64,000 nt of DNA from the NCBI GenBank assembly GCA_019359445.1, contig JAHHHJ010000004.1:1-64000 (forward strand). Reading direction: 5' to 3'. The translations under genes were made by a program, and so were the position numbers. This document shows positions 10,766 through 18,950 of this stretch, in pieces. Source of the stretch: Kastovskya adunca ATA6-11-RM4. GTDB lineage: Bacteria > Cyanobacteriota > Cyanobacteriia > Cyanobacteriales > Coleofasciculaceae. Each line of letters starts with the position of its first letter. The stretch's first letter is position 1. The notes beneath the pieces are model-generated. The model was not told the origin of the DNA. It saw only the letters and a program-made list of their open reading frames with translations, and did no database searches.

Positions 10766-11341
10766 ATGATTAACTACATCACATTGATGTTGATTAATAT
10801 GGTAGCGGGGCTAGTTCTATTAGCTTTATTTGTCTATAAAGGGTTAGATGACTCTTACCAAAAACGTTGGATTCCCGGTTTTGGCATGACTGGCGCGATC
10901 GCGTTTGTAACAGGCTTACATATGATCTTTACCTGGCCCATAACAGGCAGCTTCAATATTGCTTTCGGCGAGACTTCCGTGTTGTTTGGCACCTTATTCC
11001 TCGGTGCATCTGTATCTCTAGCATTGGGTTGGGATTTAATCACTGTCGCCATTTATGCCTTCTTTGCAGGGACAGCAGCAATTGTAATTGGGTTACGAAT
11101 CATCAATCTAGGGCTAACACGACAGCCTCTAATCTCAGGTATTGGTTTTATCCTCTCTGGTTTAGCTGGCGTTTGTGCTGCCCCCGCACTGTATTGGAAA
11201 ACCAATCGCGCTTTTCGCTTAATTGGTGTCGCTGTCTTGGTTATTGCTGCCTTAATTTGGGCAATCACGGGATTTCGAGCCTATTGGGGACACTTGGCTG
11301 ACTACACCGACTGGAAGCCGCTTCCGATGCAGTCGCCATAG
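10766..11341 (+). CDS. DUF981 family membrane protein
   Basis: This 191-residue protein has about six hydrophobic segments, starting with MINYITLMLINMVAGLVLLA. The order of motifs (WIPGFGMTGAIAFVTGLHM, then TWPITGSFNIAFGE, then LFLGASVSLALGWDL) matches the DUF981 / COG3374 family of predicted membrane proteins. Their function is unknown. The C-terminus ends with HLADYTDWKPLP, which is probably outside the membrane. The gene stands alone and points toward the copper block, which is on the opposite strand. The family call is fairly secure. Confidence 0.8.
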   Translation: MINYITLMLINMVAGLVLLALFVYKGLDDSYQKRWIPGFGMTGAIAFVTGLHMIFTWPITGSFNIAFGETSVLFGTLFLGASVSLALGWDLITVAIYAFFAGTAAIVIGLRIINLGLTRQPLISGIGFILSGLAGVCAAPALYWKTNRAFRLIGVAVLVIAALIWAITGFRAYWGHLADYTDWKPLPMQSP

Positions 11342-11537: not shown

Positions 11538-12466
11538 TCACTTCACCTCTACCCAAAAATCTGTGGTTACAATTTTGCCCCCACGGTTGAATTGTCCCCA
11601 AAGTTTATATTTTCCAGGCTGAGGAAAGCTGGTATGAAAACTTACTTCTCCAACGCGACTCTTGCCTAGGGCATGGGCGTGAATGTAGTTTTCTTGGATG
11701 ATTGGTGAGGATTGGCGAAGGATGACGAGATGCCCTTTTTCTCCTAAGTAAGGCTGCAAGTTTGTCAGCGGTTGATTAGTTTTCGCATCTTGCAAGTTGA
11801 ATTGCAAGGTCACTTCTTCACCTGCTTTGATTGTCGGGTTAGAAAGGCTAAGTGTGGCTTTTGTATCGCTAAAGGTTTTGGTGCGATTTAAATCGGTAGG
11901 AAAGGGAGTTGAAAGTTTTCCTGGAACTGTTGCTTTTAGCAGCGAAACTTGTTCCTTTTGTCCCGCAGGTTTGTAGTCAGCGAACAGGTTGTAATTTCCA
12001 GGTTGAGGAAAATCGGCATTAATTTCAAAGCGTCCGTTGCCTTTGAATTCGGGATGAAGATGGCTGAAATGTTGCAGGTCGTCGCTCACTACGATTAAGT
12101 GCATGAGCTGTTCTTGAAAGGTATCGAAATTCGCGATCGCCTTCCCGTTTGAGCCTTGAACATCAATAACCAGGGGAACTGATTGATTCGGGGCAATTGT
12201 TTGAGGAAGCGTCAGTTTTGCTTGTGCGGTTTCTGTCTTGTGAGGAGTGGCGGCGTTGTCCATCTGATGCCCTGCATGAGAGTCATGGTTTGGCATTGAA
12301 TGCCCTGCATGGGGTCAGTGGCAGGGTTGGAATGTGTCGCGTCGTGCATCATGCCTTGATGATTCATTTTGCTGAGGGAGTGGATTGCCACTGTTGCAAC
12401 CGTTCCCCCAGCTAGCAAAGCAGCGATCGCGTAAATCAATGAGGATTTTTTGATGGTTCTACGCAT
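11538..12466 (-). CDS. Secreted His/Met-rich protein, probably copper-related, with a one-base frameshift
   Basis: The gene appears to start at 12466 (MRRTIKKSSLIYAI), giving a signal peptide and a Met/His segment (MNHQGMMHDATH). The reading frame is lost at a run of four G (plus strand 12311-12314). One extra base there would join the N-terminus to the downstream frame (from 12296, MPNHDSHAGHQMDN), which encodes the remaining 252 residues. The body has two similar beta-sandwich-like stretches with FPQPGNYNLFADY and FPQPGKYKLWGQF, and an HFSHLHPEF motif, as in FixH/YtkA-like secreted domains. The start overlaps the stop of the cupredoxin gene by eight bases, so the two genes are probably translated together from the MerR-type promoter at about 13.07 kb. 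The break may be real or a sequencing error. Confidence 0.7.
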
Positions 12467-13007
12467 GGGTATTTCTTTGAGAATTAGACGCTGATTCTTG
12501 AACTTCGACGACACCCCGGAACATATTCATGCCACAGGTAAATTGATACTGTCCTGGCGTTTCTGGCGTAAATTCTACAGGTGTCACCTGATTCAAATCC
12601 AGATCGGCTGCAATGTGGAAATCTGGTAGTAATACTTGCTCCAAGCAGCTACTGGGATCTTTTCGCACAAAATTCAACCGCACGGGTTGCCCCGCTTGCA
12701 CAACAACGCGGTCTGGATCGTAACCGCCATCGACCGCGATCGCTATTTCCTGCACTCCTTCACCCGCCTCAGCTTGCTTTGCAGAACTTTTGCTAAAGAG
12801 AAACCACCACAACTCTGCACCGATCAATGCCAAGCCACCGAAGGTTACAGCAAGTTTCAATGGCAACGGTTGCTCAATGGGTTGAAATTCGCCAGTTGTC
12901 TCCACCCCAGTTTCAATTGGTCTAGCTGTAGCAGGAGTACCGGAGGCAATTGAGAGCAAAAGCCCCAATCCTACGAGGCGTCCGTAAATCTTTGTTTTAG
13001 TTAGCAT
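12459..13007 (-). CDS. Membrane-anchored cupredoxin-domain protein
   Basis: The protein has 182 residues. A signal-like segment (about 1-28) and a membrane helix (about 50-66, LAVTFGGLALIGAELWWFLF) are followed by a cupredoxin domain (about 85-170). Copper-site motifs are visible: FHIAADL carries a possible ligand histidine and YQFTCGMNMFRG carries Cys and Met. This arrangement matches Cupredoxin_1 proteins found beside copper ATPases. Likely roles are copper binding or transfer at the outer face of the membrane. The gene is first in a two-gene unit with the secreted His/Met-rich protein and has a MerR-type promoter 37-68 bases upstream of its start. Confidence 0.8.
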   Translation of the reverse strand: MLTKTKIYGRLVGLGLLLSIASGTPATARPIETGVETTGEFQPIEQPLPLKLAVTFGGLALIGAELWWFLFSKSSAKQAEAGEGVQEIAIAVDGGYDPDRVVVQAGQPVRLNFVRKDPSSCLEQVLLPDFHIAADLDLNQVTPVEFTPETPGQYQFTCGMNMFRGVVEVQESASNSQRNTHA

Positions 13008-13043: not shown

Positions 13044-13075
13044 ATTATGAAGTCTCCACTGTAGTGGAGAGTCAA
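13044..13075 (-). promoter_or_regulatory. MerR-type metal-responsive promoter of the cupredoxin gene
   Basis: On the minus strand TTGACT (-35) and CATAAT (-10) are separated by 20 bases. The spacer holds the dyad CTCCACTACAGTGGAG. An overlong spacer centred on a dyad is the hallmark of promoters activated by MerR-family regulators such as CueR, ZntR and CoaR. The copA promoter at 18702-18734 has the same design and flanks. No MerR gene was seen in the window. Confidence 0.8.
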
Positions 13076-13094
13076 GAAAAACAGGGTGAAGAAA

Positions 13095-13397
13095 TTAACC
13101 TCCATCCAGCTTCTGAGCCACCAGATATTGCCGCTCCTCACAATCTGTCCCTTCAGACTGCAAGGTTTCGCAATCCATAAAATAGGTTGGGTCTTCTCCT
13201 ACAACTGCCGGGTTTCTTTCCACTATCGTTCCATCAAGTCGGCACCAGTAATCGCGCTGTTTTTGAAAGGGCATCAGCAGCACATTCCATAGCTTGTTGT
13301 CATCGGGGTTGGAGTACGCTGGAACGCCGATGTCGATTTCTGACTGGGGGACGTTTAGCCGCAGGGTGCGATGGAGTCCCACCAAGGAAATAAGCAA
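13095..13397 (-). CDS. Hypothetical protein, possibly a gene remnant
   Basis: This open frame of 100 residues has a protein-like composition (NPDDNKLWNVLLMPFQKQRDYW, two short acidic stretches, and cysteines in CETLQSEGTDCEERQY). I do not recognise a family. The first residues, MLISLVGLHRTLRLNVPQ, are not a clear signal peptide, and the true start may be lower. It lies just upstream of the MerR-type promoter on the same strand. It could be a small soluble cyanobacterial protein or the end of a decayed gene. Confidence 0.4.
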   Translation of the reverse strand: MLISLVGLHRTLRLNVPQSEIDIGVPAYSNPDDNKLWNVLLMPFQKQRDYWCRLDGTIVERNPAVVGEDPTYFMDCETLQSEGTDCEERQYLVAQKLDGG

Positions 13398-13722
13398 CTA
13401 TAAGTCATCCTCAATGAGCGGGACTTCTAAAAGAGGGCAGCGATCGCGTCGCTCTTTTTTCTTTATTTCCACTTCAAAGAAGCGGTTACTGATATTTTTG
13501 CGTCTGTTGATTGAATAGATTAGAAAAATTGTTAAGCGCCTATTTTGCAGAAGACAATTCTTCAGATGGTGACATTAGTGAAGATTTTGGAAGAGCCGTT
13601 CTTCAAACAAAGTTCTTTATCTAAGATTGAGGTTACTTAGACGGCTAGGGTGGCAAAAGTTACAATATAGGCTTGTTGCAACTCAGCGATCTACCTGAGC
13701 AATTTCTTCACGAGAAATCACG
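13398..13722. other. Gene-free interval upstream of the MetOD1 gene
   Basis: No supported gene was seen. The stretch is AT-rich in its second half and should contain the promoter for the two-gene signalling unit that starts at 13723. A single HIP1-like octamer overlaps 13440. Confidence 0.4.
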
Positions 13723-14268
13723 ATGAATAGTTCTTCTAAAACTGATTCGATAAGCGATCGCAGCATCCCTTTAGAACGCGATGTATTTTTACGCACCTTA
13801 ATTCGAGAATTGGCTGGCACCCTTCAAGATGTAGTTGGTACAGAGGAAGCCTCAGGGTTTATTAGCGTAGTTGGTCAAAACATGGGTAGGCAGATAGACC
13901 GAGACTACAAATCGGCTCTCAAGGTTTCTAATCTGACGCGGGAGCAAGTAGCCGATGTCTTAGTAGACTTAAAGCGGCGAATTCAGGGCGACTTTTTTAT
14001 CATTGAGCAAACAGATGAAAAGATTGTTTTGGGGAATCGTGCTTGTCCGTTTGCCGACAAAGTCATCGATCGCCCTGCCATGTGTATGATGACCTCAAAT
14101 GTCTTTGGTTCGATAGCCGCCGATAACCTAGGGTATGCCAAGGTGGAACTGCAAGAGACGATTGCCATGGGCGATGCTGGATGCAGAGTGGTTGTTTACT
14201 TAAAACCCACTCCAGAGGCAGAAGAAAGTCAAGGAAGAGAATACTTTAAGGGAGAGGATGAGGGTTGA
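13723..14268 (+). CDS. Methanogen output domain 1 (MetOD1) protein
   Basis: This 181-residue protein carries a MetOD1-type domain over about residues 25-165: [32 protein letters not shown], then a cysteine-containing [23 protein letters not shown] and [19 protein letters not shown]. The CPF...MC...GC cysteines are typical, and the domain is thought to be an output or sensor module. It overlaps the next gene, a hybrid histidine kinase, by four bases (GTTGA, where the kinase starts at TTG), so the two are almost certainly co-translated. They probably form one signalling pair, but the signal is unknown. Confidence 0.75.
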
Positions 14269-15911
14269 CGCCCGAACAGTTTCTTGAACTCGCCAAAGTA
14301 TTACCGGAACCCTCGCTCCTGATTACTGGAGACGGACAGATTCTAGCTGCCAATCCACCAGTTACTAAGACACTGGGGCTACGCCGTCAGGAGCTGGAGG
14401 GAAAAATGCTTGTTGAGTTGGTAACAAATCCTCCTGAGAAAGTTAAACAATATCTAGGTGCTTGCTCCAGAAGCCGGGAAATGGTGCTTAGCTCGTTAAC
14501 GTTTCGTAATACTGAGGGACAACCTTGCTTGTATCGCTGCGAAGGGGCAGTGCTGCAACCGCGATCGCCGGAATCTCCTTCACTGATTTTCTTGCGTTTA
14601 AAAAACATGGACTCCGCTAGCAGCAGATTCGTCCTCCTGAACAAAAAAATAGATGAATTGGCAAAAGAAATCCGGGAGCGTCAACGAGTAGAAGCAGAAC
14701 GGGCGCAACTGTTGGTGCGGGAGCAGTTGGCACGAGCGGAGGCTGAGAAGCTGAATCGATTGAAGGATGAATTTCTCTCCACCCTTTCCCACGAGTTGCG
14801 GACTCCCCTCAATTCTATCCTCGGCTGGTCTCAAATCCTTCGCACCCGCAAATCGAACGAAGCAACGACAATTCGTGCCTTAGAAACAATCGAGCGCAAT
14901 GCTAGGTCTCAGGCGCAGCTAGTTGAGGATCTCCTCAATGTTTCACGCATCATTACGGGCAAGATTCGTTTGCATGTTCAAGCAGTTGAGCTAATATCAG
15001 TCATTGAAGCCGCAATGGATACCGTGCGACCTGCCGCTGAGGCGAAAAACATTCGACTGCAATCAGTCCTCGATCCAGCAGCAGGGCCGATTTTAGGAGA
15101 CTTTGAGCGGTTACAGCAGATCGCCTGGAATCTCCTCAGCAATGCAATTAAGTTCACGCCAAAAGGCGGGCGCGTTCAGGTGGGGCTGAAACGAATTAAT
15201 TCTCATGTTGAGATTATTGTGACGGATACAGGGCAAGGCATTAGCGCGGAGTTCCTTCCCTACGTCTTCGATCGCTTTCGCCAAGCCGATAATTCCATCA
15301 CCCGAACCTTTGGTGGGTTGGGGCTAGGGTTAGCGATTGTGCGTCAGCTAGTTGAGCTACATGGCGGAACAGTGCATGTGGAGAGTCCAGGTGAAGGACA
15401 AGGAGCGATGTTTACTGTAAATTTACCGCTGATGGCAGTTAGCCCGAAGGCTATTGAACCAGAATGGGTACATCCAACAGTGGGAGGTAGCGTTCCGTTT
15501 GACTACTCACCTCGGCTAGATGGATTAAGGATACTTGTCGTGGATGATGAGGCGGATGTCCGCGAGCTAATTACCTACATACTAGAAGCCTGTGGGACTG
15601 AAGTCCTAGCGGCGGCTTCGGCAGATGAAGCGATCGCAGCACTGACTCGCTCTTCTACAGCAATAGATGTGTTAATCAGCGATATTGGGATGCCGGATGA
15701 AGATGGTTATACGCTGCTGCGTAGAGTGAGAGCGCTAAAGCCAGAAAACGGCGGAAAAATTCCCGCTATAGCCCTGACAGCCTATGCCAGAACGGAGGAT
15801 CGTAGGACTGCTCTTTTAGCAGGCTTCCAGTGCCATATTGCCAAACCCGTTGAACCTGCCGAATTAGTTGCAGTAGTTGCAAATTTAGCCGGACGCACTC
15901 AATATCTCTAA
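14265..15911 (+). CDS. PAS-containing hybrid histidine kinase with receiver domain
   Basis: This 548-residue protein starts at a TTG that overlaps the stop of the MetOD1 gene. Order of domains: PAS (about 5-115, [21 protein letters not shown]), a short coiled coil (about 120-165), HisKA with phospho-acceptor His176 in [10 protein letters not shown], HATPase (about 270-390, with [21 protein letters not shown] and [13 protein letters not shown]), and a receiver domain (about 420-545) with phospho-acceptor Asp473 in [13 protein letters not shown]. There is no membrane segment, so it is a cytoplasmic sensor. All key residues are present. The partner output protein or downstream response regulator is not next to it. 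Confidence 0.9.
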
Positions 15912-15961
15912 ATTTTTGTCAGTCAATTAGGGCAGCGATCGCCTAAATGCAACGGAGCTAC

Positions 15962-16294
15962 CTACCCAGTAGCACCACTTGAGGTAGTAGTGTAAGTGGC
16001 GCACTGTGCAACACTATCCAGAAGGTTAACGGTGATTGAATCTGCTATGCACCTCTGCCCTTCGTTATAGGTGCAGTCAATTACGTCGCACTGGGACACA
16101 TCGCCCGCTCCTCTGGCAACCTGCACTGAAGACGATGGCTCTTCTGTTGTGTAGGTGTAACACTGGGCCAGATCATCTAAAAAGGTAACGTCAATTGCGC
16201 CTGCTATGCACCTCTGCCCTTCGTTGTAAGTGCAATTCATTACGTCGCATTGAGACACAATACCTAAGTCGATAGGCTCGCCTGTTTGAACCAT
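15962..16294 (-). CDS. Tandem DUF1540 cysteine-rich protein
   Basis: The protein has 110 residues made of two near-copies of one domain. Each contains the pattern SQCDV-(M/I)-(N/D)-CTYNEGQRCIA, a short strand, and a final AQC with YTYTT or ATYTT. This is the DUF1540 pattern of four conserved cysteines, thought to bind a metal, with no known enzyme role. It is preceded by a good ribosome site (AGGAG) before MVQTGEPIDLG. It lies between a histidine kinase and a copper ATPase, on the strand of the ATPase, so a metal-related role is possible but not shown. Confidence 0.8.
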   Translation of the reverse strand: MVQTGEPIDLGIVSQCDVMNCTYNEGQRCIAGAIDVTFLDDLAQCYTYTTEEPSSSVQVARGAGDVSQCDVIDCTYNEGQRCIADSITVNLLDSVAQCATYTTTSSGATG

Positions 16295-16408
16295 AGCTTC
16301 TCCTGCCGCAAGCTGTTTGCTTAGAGCACTTTAATCACAATAGTTCGCGAAAATCGTATCGTAGGCAACATGGGATGCGATCACAGGTGAGGCTTAAATA
16401 ATCCTGTT

Positions 16409-18670
16409 TTATTCATTACTTTTGGGTTGAAAATTCCGCAAGCGCAAGGCATTAGTTACGACGGAGACAGAACTAAACGCCATCGCCGCCCCGGCAATAA
16501 TCGGGTTCAGCAACCAGCCTGTAAAGGGATAGAGAATTCCGGCAGCAATGGGAATTCCTAAGGTGTTGTAGATAAAGGCAAAAAAGAGATTTTGGCGAAT
16601 ATTGCGAATCGTCGCGCGAGAAAGCTGAATTGCCGTCACGATTCCGGTTAAGTCGCCAGAAATTAAGGTAATATCGCTGGCGGCGATCGCCACATCTGTT
16701 CCCGTACCGATCGCTATCCCGATATTTGCCTGAGCAAGGGCGGGAGCATCGTTGATTCCATCCCCTACCATCGCCACAATTTTGCCTTCTTGTTGCAGTT
16801 GCTTGATTTTTTCTGCCTTTTGATCGGGACGAACTTCGGCAAAAACCCGCTGAATGCCAACTTCGCGGGCGATCGCTTCTGCGGTTTGGCGATTATCGCC
16901 CGTAAGCATCACCACCTCTAAACCCATCTTGCGTAGCGCTTTTACGGCACTGGCTGAAGAGGATTTCAGGGTATCGGCAATGCCAACAGCCGCTTCAACT
17001 TGCCCATCCACCGCAATTAAAGCCGTGCTTTTGCTAGAGGCTGCCCATTGTTCGAGAGAATCTAAGAGCGATCGCGCCTCAATTCCCAACTCCGCCATCC
17101 ATCTAGACGTGCCGATTTGTACTAAGCGATCGTTAACTGTTCCCTGAACTCCTTTCCCAGGAACCGCTTCAAAGTTGCTGACATCGGGTAAAGGTTGTTC
17201 CGCCCCTTGAGATTTTGCGTATTCAACAATTGCCGCTGCTAAGGGATGCTCGGAATTGCGTTCAACAGCAGCAGCAAGCCGCAATAGCTTAATTTCGTTG
17301 TGGTGGGCAGTTCCGCGAACGGTGATGTAATTCGTTACTACAGGCTTACCTTCTGTGAGCGTTCCGGTTTTATCGAGAACAAGAGATTGAATTTCGTGGG
17401 CAGTTTCCAAGCTTTCCGCCCCTTGAATTAAAATGCCGTTTTCCGCCCCTTTACCCGTACCTACCATTACCGAAGTTGGGGTGGCTAAACCCAAAGCACA
17501 GGGACAGGCAATAATTAGCACTCCCACTGTTGTAATCATTGCTAGGGTGAGATTGCCCATCAAATTGAACCAGATCACGAAAGTAGCGATCGCGATCGCC
17601 ATGACGACAGGGACAAACAACCCCGTCACCCGATCCGCCAAGCGCTGAATGGGGGCTTTTGAGCCTTGCGCCTGCTGCACTAACCGCACGATTTGCGCCA
17701 GTACCGTATCCTTCCCAATCCGCGAGGCTTGGAACTTGAAGCTACCTGACTTATTAATTGTTGCGCCAATTACTTCATCACCCGGTTGCTTTTTCACAGG
17801 CAAACTTTCGCCCGTCACCATCGCTTCATCAACCGTCGAAGTGCCATCCACCACTTCCCCATCCACCGGGATTTTTTCCCCCGGACGCACTAAGATGACA
17901 TCGCCAACCTGCACTTCCTCAATGGGGATATCGACTTCCTCCCCTTGGCGAATTACCCGTGCTGTCTTCGCTTGCAAGCCCATGAGTTCGCGAATCGCTG
18001 CTGAGGTTTGCCCTCGCGCCCGATTTTCAAAAAATCGCCCCAAGAGGATTAAGGTAATCACAATGGCGGCAGTTTCGTAATAGACGGCTGGCTCTAACCC
18101 TTGCGCGATAAAAAATCCGGGGAAAATCGTGGCAAATAGAGAATAAAAATACGCCGCACTCGTCCCTAAGGCAATTAGGGTATTCATATCAGCCGAGCGG
18201 CGTTTAAATGCCTTCCACGCACCGCGATAAAACGACAACCCGCACCAAAACTGTACGGGTGTCGTCAACACGAGTTGCAACCAAAAATTGTGCAGCCATC
18301 CGGGAATCAGGGGGATATGCACTCCTGTCATCATCGGTAGCCCTCCAATCAGCAGCACGACACTGATCGCACCACCCACGATGAGTTTGCGGATTAAGTC
18401 TCGCTTTTGGGCTTTGCGAATCTCTTGCTCGGTATCGTCTTCCACCGCCCCCATTTCCTGAAGCGGCGAAGCACCGTACCCGGCATCCGTAACGGCTTGC
18501 TGAATGGCTTCTAAGTTGGTTTTTTGGGGATTGTACTGAACTGTTGCTTGTTCGGCTCCAAAGTTGACGCTGCACTCAACCACGCCAGGGGCGGCTTGAA
18601 TGGCTTGCTCGATATTGGCAGCACAACCTGCACAACTCATACCCCGCAGTTTTAATGTGAGGGTTTCCAT
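16409..18670 (-). CDS. copA: Copper-translocating P-type ATPase (CopA type)
   Basis: This P1B-type ATPase has about 753 residues from the ATG at 18670. The longer open frame up to 18733 runs through the promoter and is not the start. One N-terminal HMA domain carries [10 protein letters not shown]. The membrane CPC motif [10 protein letters not shown], the TGES motif [10 protein letters not shown], the phosphorylation motif [10 protein letters not shown], the HP motif SEHPLAAAI and the hinge motif [13 protein letters not shown] are all present. It exports or moves copper across the membrane, and its closest cyanobacterial relatives are PacS or CtaA. Direction cannot be read from the sequence. 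A MerR-type promoter lies 32-64 bases upstream. The copper chaperone gene is next on the same strand. Confidence 0.95.
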
Positions 18671-18701
18671 GACTAGCTTTTGCTCTTGGTTACTTTCCCT
18701 C

Positions 18702-18734
18702 AGGATAAAGTCTCCAGTCAAAGGGAGAGTCAAG
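18702..18734 (-). promoter_or_regulatory. MerR-type metal-responsive promoter of copA
   Basis: On the minus strand TTGACT (-35) and TATCCT (-10) are 20 bases apart. The spacer contains CTCCCTTTGACTGGAG, a dyad with the same outer bases as the operator of the cupredoxin gene (TTGACTCTCC...GGAGACTT). This placement also shows that translation starts at 18670 and not at 18733. Confidence 0.8.
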
Positions 18735-18755: not shown

Positions 18756-18950
18756 TTAGACCACAGGATATCCGGCTGAGGCGATCGCTTCTCGCACGGC
18801 AGTTTCTGGCTTTTGCGTTTCGACGTTGACTATCTTGTTTTTTATGTCAACATCTATACGGGCATTAGGATCGAGAGAATGAACGGCTTTGGTGACTGTT
18901 TCTACGCAGCTAGCACAAGCTATTTTGGGAACCTGGAGTTGCATGGGCAT
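18756..18950 (-). CDS. Copper chaperone (HMA domain)
   Basis: This 64-residue protein is a single heavy-metal-associated domain: LQVPKIACASCVETVTKAVH carries the CASC copper-binding motif, and the end is IASAGYPVV. It resembles cyanobacterial Atx1, which passes Cu(I) to the N-terminal HMA domain of copper ATPases. It sits upstream of copA on the same strand, 86 bases before the copA start, but copA has its own MerR-type promoter in between. The start is at MPMQLQ; the second ATG two codons later would be equally good. Confidence 0.88.
   Translation of the reverse strand: MPMQLQVPKIACASCVETVTKAVHSLDPNARIDVDIKNKIVNVETQKPETAVREAIASAGYPVV

Follow-up and report, generated by a model that had tools for sequence, protein, structure and literature searches.

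The promoters of a cupredoxin-like gene and of a copA gene look alike in the window considered here, the whole stretch of 64,000 nucleotides from Kastovskya adunca ATA6-11-RM4, and this raises the question of whether one regulator acts on both, which protein it may be, and to which metal it would respond. The features concerned are as follows.

11538 to 12296, minus strand: gene for a 252-aa protein, situated downstream of the cupredoxin gene and without a match in Pfam or NCBIfam (called "FixH-like" here as a working label only)
12459 to 13007, minus strand: cupredoxin-like gene, 182 aa (PF13473, 77.0 bits, cut-off 27)
13044 to 13075, minus strand: cupredoxin promoter, with a TTGACT -35 box, a 20-bp spacer, and a CATAAT -10 box
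16409 to 18670, minus strand: copA, encoding a Cu-translocating P1B ATPase of 753 aa (TIGR01511, 667.8 bits, cut-off 397) with an N-terminal HMA domain
18702 to 18733, minus strand: copA promoter, with a TTGACT -35 box, a 20-bp spacer containing CTCC-N8-GGAGACTT, and a TATCCT -10 box
18756 to 18950, minus strand: gene for a 64-aa HMA (CopZ-like) protein; 22 bases separate its end from the copA promoter

Each of the two promoters has the form TTGACT-CTCC-N8-GGAG-ACTT, with 20 bp of spacer followed by a -10 box, so that the anatomy given in an earlier note on this DNA (TTGACT, 20-bp spacer, CTCC...GGAG dyad, -10 box) is borne out by the sequence. Both lie on the minus strand. The cupredoxin promoter runs from TTGACT (13070 to 13075) through CTCCACTACAGTGGAGACTT to CATAAT (13044 to 13049), and its dyad, CTCCACT-AC-AGTGGAG, is a perfect 7+7; the copA promoter runs from TTGACT (18728 to 18733) through CTCCCTTTGACTGGAGACTT to TATCCT (18702 to 18707), with pairing of the dyad in the outer arms only. 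The frame common to the two is TTGACTCTCC-N8-GGAGACTT, and the central gap is N8; the N10 search pattern put forward earlier has no match in the window at up to three mismatches. The ATG start codons, at 13007 (cupredoxin) and 18670 (copA), lie 40 and 35 bases, respectively, past the end of the 28-base consensus.

Searching the host genome (G000) for the refined consensus TTGACTCTCCN8GGAGAGTTTA at up to three mismatches gave five sites, located 35 to 49 bases ahead of start codons (reversed control, 0). The search for further sites that the earlier note had proposed yields five in all with the N8 consensus, one of them ahead of a merR gene, the other targets being copA, the cupredoxin gene, a CopM-family gene, and a thioredoxin-like gene. 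An exact search with GGAGACTT returns only the two window sites because the right arm of the consensus is GGAGAGT. A first search with GGAGACTT at up to three mismatches had given 11 matches (reversed control, 4); six were dropped, five as lying inside longer ORFs and one as having no correctly oriented gene behind it, and the remaining five are the sites of the refined consensus. No operator was seen in this genome upstream of the 64-aa HMA gene, homologs of which have their own operator in relatives. Homologs of the 252-aa protein also have an operator in front in some relatives; in the host, this gene is probably cotranscribed with the cupredoxin gene.

The genome encodes three MerR-type (PF13411) proteins, none of them in the window, as predicted earlier for the regulator. 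One of the three genes stands out:

G000:C23:147651-148061: candidate merR gene, 137 aa (PF13411, PF00376, and PF09278 all above cut-off)

This gene has the same operator 42 bases upstream of its own start. It is the ortholog of the merR gene that follows copA and cupredoxin in many relatives, where, among the 70 loci that extend more than 3 kb upstream, 46 have the order copA-cupredoxin-merR; the window cupredoxin is a homolog of the one standing between copA and merR. Of 75 relative loci, 65 have an operator (no more than 3 of 14 mismatches) within 300 bp ahead of merR. The earlier proposal of a single regulon under a MerR-type regulator gains support from the operator of the C23 gene and the position of its ortholog beside copA-cupredoxin, and, judged from sequence, the C23 MerR protein is the best candidate for the regulator of both window promoters. 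That the promoters might instead answer to one of the other two MerR-type proteins, on contigs C16 and C34, or to a protein missing from the 37-contig assembly is hardly probable at all. The C16 gene is a MerR-CbiC fusion with the architecture of CoaR, which is known in cyanobacteria to activate the gene of a metal P-type ATPase (PMC4284471), and the presence of three MerR-type genes leaves room for such a choice. Against this, only the C23 gene among the three has the operator in its own promoter, the fusion gene being absent from the own-genome matches; the C34 protein is small, has no cysteine, and is preceded by a different repeat; the C23 ortholog stands beside copA-cupredoxin in relatives; and genome completeness is estimated at 99.99%. 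The cobalt regulator CoaR of Synechocystis is likewise of MerR type and activates a P1B ATPase gene, as C23 MerR is proposed to do, but is a long protein with a precorrin-isomerase-like (CbiC-like) domain, whereas C23 MerR is only 137 aa long and has no CbiC domain.

Could two such promoters resemble each other by accident? In the window, the N8 pattern occurs at exactly two sites, both exact matches, while 100 shuffles gave a mean of 0.03 sites at up to three mismatches and none of them reached two. With a wider consensus that includes the last -10 base, the cupredoxin and copA sites have one and two mismatches; in 20 first-order Markov replicas of the window, the best site had between 5 and 7 each time. 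Across the 75 relative loci (1.40 Mb), the consensus has 39, 37, 45, 55, and 91 matches at 0, 1, 2, 3, and 4 mismatches; reversed, complemented, and N7 controls gave none, and an N9 control gave six, all at 4 mismatches. At up to two mismatches, the promoter was found in 111 of 195 genomes of the host's order and the reversed pattern in none. The likeness of the two promoters thus has practically no chance of being fortuitous: nothing speaks for accident beyond the small number of sites in a single window, and it is refuted by the shuffles (2 sites observed against 0.03 expected), by the 75-locus and 195-genome controls, and by the conservation of the promoter within the order.

In the loci examined, the promoter lies mostly ahead of copA, small HMA protein, CopM-family, DUF411, or merR genes. 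Taking copper genes or merR as the reference set, a reference gene follows the site (up to two mismatches) in 27/34, 39/45, and 25/31 cases in three slightly overlapping sets and in 114/121 cases in the 75 loci, the sites with no such gene behind them amounting to 7/34, 6/45, 6/31, and 7/121. The last -10 base, which was left out of the search pattern, is T at 34/34, 44/45, 29/31, and 121/121 sites. The copA sites in the 75 loci are mostly degenerate (35 of 39 at 3 or 4 mismatches). Presence of the promoter also follows the strength of the MerR match, with 98 of 127 genomes for a strong match, 9 of 27 for a weaker one, and 4 of 41 for none, counts in which shared ancestry is ignored; two of the four genomes with sites but no detected MerR are 75 to 77% complete. 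Of the close-clade genomes, 3 of 25 have no site at up to two mismatches.

MerR proteins 50 to 60% identical were initially taken for a separate paralog with another operator, an assignment dropped after the order-wide scan. In 20 regions of 6.5 kb around their genes, clear sites of the present type were seen in one only (L135). In the order-wide scan, genomes with only this MerR type still have the operator ahead of copper genes, and in five of them (G057, G093, G110, G112, and G141) no more than 100 bases separate a site from the MerR gene, the better-matching strand pointing away from that gene in three. Because the scan places the operator both at copper genes and near MerR, the two MerR types likely use the same operator.

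What can be read directly from the sequences is where the sites lie and how well they are conserved, which genes follow them, the copA-cupredoxin-merR linkage in relatives, and the two conserved cysteines described below. Binding at these promoters is what we infer, as is activation by DNA distortion, the latter from known MerR proteins, and Cu(I) is put forward as the inducer because of the target genes. On balance, we consider it probable that the two window promoters, both of MerR type, belong to a single copper-efflux regulon run by C23 MerR with Cu(I) as inducer. In the proposed mechanism, homodimeric C23 MerR would sit on the 22-bp palindrome ACTCTCC-N8-GGAGAGT between the -35 and -10 boxes (20 bp), holding the promoter unproductive without metal and, with metal, underwinding and bending the DNA, such that a sigma-70-type RNA polymerase would see the two boxes in register. 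Cytosolic Cu(I) is the most likely inducer and would be coordinated jointly by Cys84 from one subunit and Cys131 from its partner. Switched on would be the CopA exporter, the cupredoxin and the gene after it, the CopM-family protein with the rppA- and rppB-type genes behind it, the thioredoxin-like protein, and merR itself.

Such a regulon works like CueR but is not CueR. CueR and HmrR of gamma- and betaproteobacteria are MerR-family proteins that act on a palindrome in an over-spaced promoter with a 19-bp spacer and control a Cu transporter, a multicopper oxidase, and copper chaperones (PMC1526738). The present system shares with them the MerR-family protein, the palindromic operator within an over-spaced promoter, and copper-efflux targets (copA, cupredoxin, and the CopM family in its own genome; copper genes in relatives). 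It differs in the spacer (20 bp versus the 19 bp reported there), in the operator (ACTCTCC-N8-GGAGAGT versus the published ACCTTCCC-(5)-TGGAAGGT), in extra targets such as the cupredoxin, CopM-family, and thioredoxin-like genes, and in the sensor protein, which has no Cys112 and has Cys84 in place of Ser77 of CueR. With the CueR NCBIfam model, C23 MerR scores 88.6 bits, below the cut-off of 147.4. A match in site geometry is offered by the cyanobacterial HMRTR-type MerR regulators, for which 22-bp sites centered 8 bp from the -35 box and 19- to 20-bp spacers are described, as here; the whole set included 22 regulators from cyanobacteria, and for the cyanobacterial HMRTR members protein-DNA pairs are mentioned, while the portion of text used names neither metal nor target genes for them (PMC5045206).

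The cysteines of the candidate sensor bear on which metal it would bind. C23 MerR has exactly two, as have 69 of the 76 aligned rows in all. Cys84 is a cysteine in 75/76 rows, with one gap; Cys131, the equivalent of CueR Cys120, is present in 75/76, and a CPII motif places this last metal cysteine in alignment with Cys120. CueR Cys112 has no counterpart, and a cysteine between 112 and 130 occurs in 1/76 rows. ZntR promoters have a 20-bp spacer, as here, and the operators and targets of ZntR, CadR, PbrR, and mercury MerR differ from those described here. The best PDB match of C23 MerR is 4ua1, entered as "Regulatory protein," a mercury MerR. Cys84 of C23 MerR aligns with a dimer-helix cysteine of the ZntR, CadR, PbrR, and mercury MerR sensors (4ua1; for CadR, PMC11591864); CadR has three metal cysteines versus two here (PMC11591864).

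These features make it conceivable, if unlikely, that the same MerR controls both promoters in response to a divalent thiophilic metal (Hg, Cd, or Zn), with the copper genes induced as a by-product or in a broad thiol-metal response. The Cys84 position is described as cysteine in divalent-ion sensors and serine in monovalent-ion sensors (PMC11591864), and the top NCBIfam score of C23 MerR is for mercury MerR (91.5 bits, cut-off 150.85), although, as for ZntR (80.2/167.95) and CadR-PbrR (80.3/151.45), it falls below the cut-off. The targets speak against a divalent inducer: those that can be named are copA, HMA protein, CopM-family, DUF411, multicopper oxidase, and DUF1326 genes, joined by cupredoxin in this genome and at one other locus, and no mercuric reductase or Zn/Cd exporter is among the named targets, some sites having no named target. 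The 4ua1 protein has three cysteines, one of which also lacks a counterpart in C23 MerR.

In favor of the divalent reading, a mercury response is reported for a cyanobacterial MerR, Slr0701 of Synechocystis PCC 6803 (PMC6741143). As compared by published description, Slr0701 resembles C23 MerR in length (a 1340-bp amplicon minus flanks, 413 bp), in acting on its own promoter, in a conserved inverted repeat upstream, and in a second target far off in the genome; it differs in its Hg response, its merA target, and its lack of binding upstream of sll1920 (PMC6741143), which is pacS (PMC4284471). None of the four Synechocystis genomes in our sample, the genus being taken from an exact primer match, has a site at up to two mismatches. 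The published primer next to slr0701 found one genome with both flanks and no merR between them, and in the remaining genomes of the genus there are distant MerR proteins only, or none.

Very unlikely, too, is a scheme in which copA and the cupredoxin gene are mainly under a CsoR-type repressor or a two-component system, the MerR site being of minor importance. The genome has two CsoR-family genes, and CopRS controls copMRS and copBAC in Synechocystis, though not ctaA, pacS, or atx1 (PMC4182526, PMC4284471). However, the 20-bp spacer, the dyad, and the T as last -10 base are the anatomy of MerR activation, in many genomes of the host's order the MerR-type promoter is again found at copA, and no copper gene is evident in the 3.2 kb around each CsoR-family gene.

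Copper is central to plastocyanin and oxidase supply. In the model cyanobacterium, CopRS does not explain how copper regulates the Cu-ATPase genes (PMC4182526, PMC4284471). A search of titles and abstract openings, with subscription journals mostly and preprints wholly outside its scope, found no copper-responsive MerR regulon in cyanobacteria. The promoter and regulator described here form a pair that can be picked out by sequence across much of the order, and beyond it in other orders of the class, and the question of Cu-ATPase regulation thereby becomes testable. That one MerR sensor controls copper export, chaperones, CopM, DUF411, and multicopper oxidase in many cyanobacteria, binding Cu(I) across the dimer through Cys84 and Cys131, is a wider proposition to which we would give about an even chance. 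If the sensor is truly one for Cu(I), its cysteine pattern would contradict the serine/cysteine dimer-helix rule for monovalent versus divalent ions, a cross-subunit site standing in place of the two cysteines of one loop plus a serine that CueR uses, and a regulator of cyanobacterial copA-type genes, not accounted for by CopRS, would have been identified.

Two minus-strand promoters in the window share the frame TTGACTCTCC-N8-GGAGACTT, which, at up to 3 mismatches, has exactly 2 matches there against 0.03 expected. The features concerned are as follows.

Copper-related features of the window
12459–13007, minus: cupredoxin-like ORF, 182 aa (PF13473)
13044–13075, minus: cupredoxin promoter, TTGACT-20 bp-CATAAT (from the sequence)
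16409–18670, minus: copA, copper-type P1B ATPase with HMA domain (TIGR01511, 667.8 bits; cutoff, 397)
18702–18733, minus: copA promoter, TTGACT-20 bp-TATCCT (from the sequence)
Upstream of the copA promoter, 22-base gap: neighboring ORF for a 64-aa HMA protein

The observation in the window was correct: both promoters, which share their outer bases and have an overlong spacer, lie where the earlier note had put them. The N10 search pattern it proposed gives zero matches, the central gap being N8.

Several neighboring genes were also recorded. The gene after cupredoxin (11538–12514, minus) is read as two overlapping frames, one of 100 aa with a signal-like start and one of 252 aa, the latter (labeled FixH-like here) having no Pfam or NCBIfam match; its typical homolog is a single protein of 293 aa, and the split is apparently a frameshift or assembly error. 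A 110-aa protein encoded directly 3′ of copA in the same orientation (15962–16294, minus; PF07561) contains two DUF1540 stretches and may be another metal-binding component of the copA unit. The interval separating cupredoxin from copA holds, on the other strand, a gene for a MetOD1-domain protein followed by one for a PAS-histidine kinase-response regulator hybrid (13723–15911, plus), and a DUF981 protein (10766–11341, plus; PF06168) adjoins the cupredoxin unit.

Across the whole genome (5.09 Mb, 37 contigs), the pattern TTGACTCTCC-N8-GGAGAGTTTA, with as many as 3 mismatches allowed, gave five matches and its reversed form none. Three precede copA (−10 box TATCCT), the cupredoxin gene (CATAAT), and a merR gene on contig C23 (TAAAAT); the others, with TATCAT and AACAAT among them, precede a CopM-family gene on contig C3 (NF049983, 120.2 bits; cutoff, 90) and a gene for an 82-aa thioredoxin-like protein on contig C7 (PF13192). 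In all five, 35 to 49 bases separate the end of the site from the start codon, and two of the five −10 boxes deviate from TAnnnT. As the earlier note had anticipated, the putative regulator gene lies outside the window: the genome has three MerR-type genes, on C16, C23, and C34, and the window none. The C16 product is a MerR-CbiC fusion, the architecture of CoaR; the C34 protein has no cysteine, and its gene, which precedes one read as an aldo/keto reductase gene, has an upstream repeat that differs from the operator. In C23 merR the operator TTGTGTCTCCAGTGCGCTGGAGAGTTTA ends 42 bases before the start, with TAAAAT at the 20-bp spacing. The note's proposal that the two window promoters form one MerR regulon is supported, the C23 merR promoter carrying the same operator.

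Behind the C3 CopM-family gene stand rppA- and then rppB-type two-component genes (L018:2629–5688, minus, CopM-family gene included), and divergent from it is a Csp-like gene (family score 24 against a cutoff of 100), from which the MerR-type promoter points away. Whereas copM of Synechocystis sits with copRS, the CopM-family gene here sits with rppA/rppB-type genes under a MerR-type promoter, an arrangement that may connect a sensor in the cytosol with one in the envelope.

Orthologs of the C23 MerR at ∼70 to 80% identity were found in 25 of the 195 genomes of the order, this one included, by our reading of the match list. In 17 of the 30 loci returned, merR immediately follows copA and cupredoxin genes in the same orientation; many of the 30 have an operator on either side of merR. 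Named genomes, searched as well, gave 299 stretches encoding a relative, of which the best 80 were kept, yielding 75 loci. Cupredoxin and copA genes stand upstream of merR in 46 of the 70 with more than 3 kb of upstream sequence. An operator with up to 3 of 14 mismatches lies within 300 bp before merR in 65 of the 75 loci, in 63 of them 30 to 49 bp before the start codon as chosen by us. At up to 4 mismatches, the 75 loci hold 267 sites, which precede merR (76), copA (39, mostly degenerate, with 3 or 4 mismatches in 35), and genes for the 64-aa HMA protein (37), FixH-like (13), CopM-family (10), thioredoxin-like (7), Cys/Met-rich (6), and other (32) proteins; we take some of the 47 without an assigned gene to be palindromes already counted from the other strand. 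Control patterns on these 1.40 Mb gave no match when reversed, complemented, or set to N7, and six with N9. Scytonema sp. NIES-4073 and Nostoc carneum NIES-2107 have plasmid-borne MerR relatives (78 and 80% identity), so the regulator moves with plasmids as well. At L118 and one further locus, operator-like sites (2 and 3 mismatches) precede a gene read as flavodoxin, a target that departs from the usual copper genes.

At up to 2 mismatches, the promoter occurs in 111 of the 195 genomes of the order and its reversed form in none. Of the genomes with a strong MerR match (E up to 1e-30), 98 of 127 carry it; the figures are 9 of 27 where the match is weaker and 4 of 41 where there is none, 21 of the latter being genomes absent from the match listing (Fisher P = 7.8e-15 for strong versus none, shared ancestry not corrected for). 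Within the strong group, it was found in 22 of 25 genomes with the close type and 76 of the remaining 102. A class-wide sample had it in 42 of 145 genomes, of which we count 35 as belonging to orders other than that of the window, with 3 reversed matches in 2 genomes. Several MerR matches (7 and 4) and operator sites (six and eight) occur in genomes G055 and G124; some of these sites precede a secreted-looking protein of 121 to 126 aa, without a Pfam match in the one examined.

With as many as 3 mismatches allowed, 88 sites from 73 loci (mostly of the order-wide scan, 40 hand-picked regions included), some sites being doubled in overlapping loci, stood before copA (27), MerR (9), CopM-family (9), HMA (8), and cupredoxin (2) genes, unmatched genes (22), or no ORF (11). 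Unmatched targets included DUF411 (two examined), multicopper oxidase, and DUF1326 proteins; two others had no Pfam match. The reference set was enlarged by these three families for sites at up to 2 mismatches, a few of which are common to several sets.

Reference genes behind sites at up to 2 mismatches, and sites with T as last −10 base
Order scan, auto-chosen loci: 27/34 (copA 8, HMA 6, MerR 6, CopM family 5, DUF1326 1, Csp 1, none 7); T, 34/34
Hand-picked regions (40): 39/45 (copA 21, HMA 8, DUF411 4, CopM family 3, MerR 2, multicopper oxidase 1, none 6); T, 44/45
Class scan, auto-chosen loci: 25/31 (HMA 11, MerR 6, copA 3, DUF411 2, CopM family 2, FixH-like 1, none 6); T, 29/31
merR loci (75): 114/121; T, 121/121

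The search pattern stops four bases before the last −10 base, which is hence an independent check; its near-constant T indicates promoters with a fixed 20-bp spacer rather than mere palindromes.

The C23 MerR (137 aa) was aligned with solved relatives, residue correspondences being read by eye. Its Cys84 aligns with Ser77 of CueR and with a cysteine of entry 4ua1, which we take to be a mercury MerR. Cys131, within a CPII motif, aligns with CueR Cys120, and a noncysteine residue stands opposite CueR Cys112 (CueR numbering as in passages of PMC6899792 and PMC11591864). Both cysteines are kept in 75 of 76 rows (the 75 loci plus the C23 MerR), the remaining row having a gap; one row has a cysteine between 112 and 130, and the proteins have two cysteines in total in 69 rows and three in 6. 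Among 20 hand-picked proteins of a more distant MerR type, all have both, two with one extra cysteine in between. Of the three cysteines that sensors of divalent metals have, the family thus retains two, and its named targets are copper genes. On the simplest reading, Cu(I) would sit in a two-thiolate site spanning the MerR dimer interface.

CueR/HmrR promoters differ in operator and have a 19-bp spacer, according to part of PMC1526738, rather than the 20 bp found here. A computational study of MerR regulators (PMC5045206) covers a class of 22-bp sites and, among its proteins, 22 from cyanobacteria, so this site type may already be cataloged. Passages on Synechocystis describe Slr0701 as a mercury regulator without binding upstream of sll1920 (PMC6741143), which is pacS (PMC4284471), and ctaA, pacS, and atx1 as not under CopRS control, with pacS about threefold up in high copper (PMC4182526). 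Four sampled genomes of that genus, as inferred from an exact primer match, have no promoter site at up to 2 mismatches. In one genome of the genus (L145, G289), the slr0701-flanking primer sites (one exact, one with 1 mismatch) lie 1056 bp from each other rather than 1340, and the stretch they enclose lacks a merR gene; slr0701 presence seems variable in the genus. Two genomes of the genus (L146 and L147) encode a distant MerR (36 to 38% identity) with two operator-like repeats upstream on opposite strands, which suggests a divergent pair.

Overall, these comparisons support and sharpen the interpretation in the earlier note, pointing to a copper-efflux regulon under the predicted control of a non-CueR MerR protein. 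From sequence, such a regulon would be widespread among cyanobacteria, its putative regulator having an unusual arrangement of cysteines.
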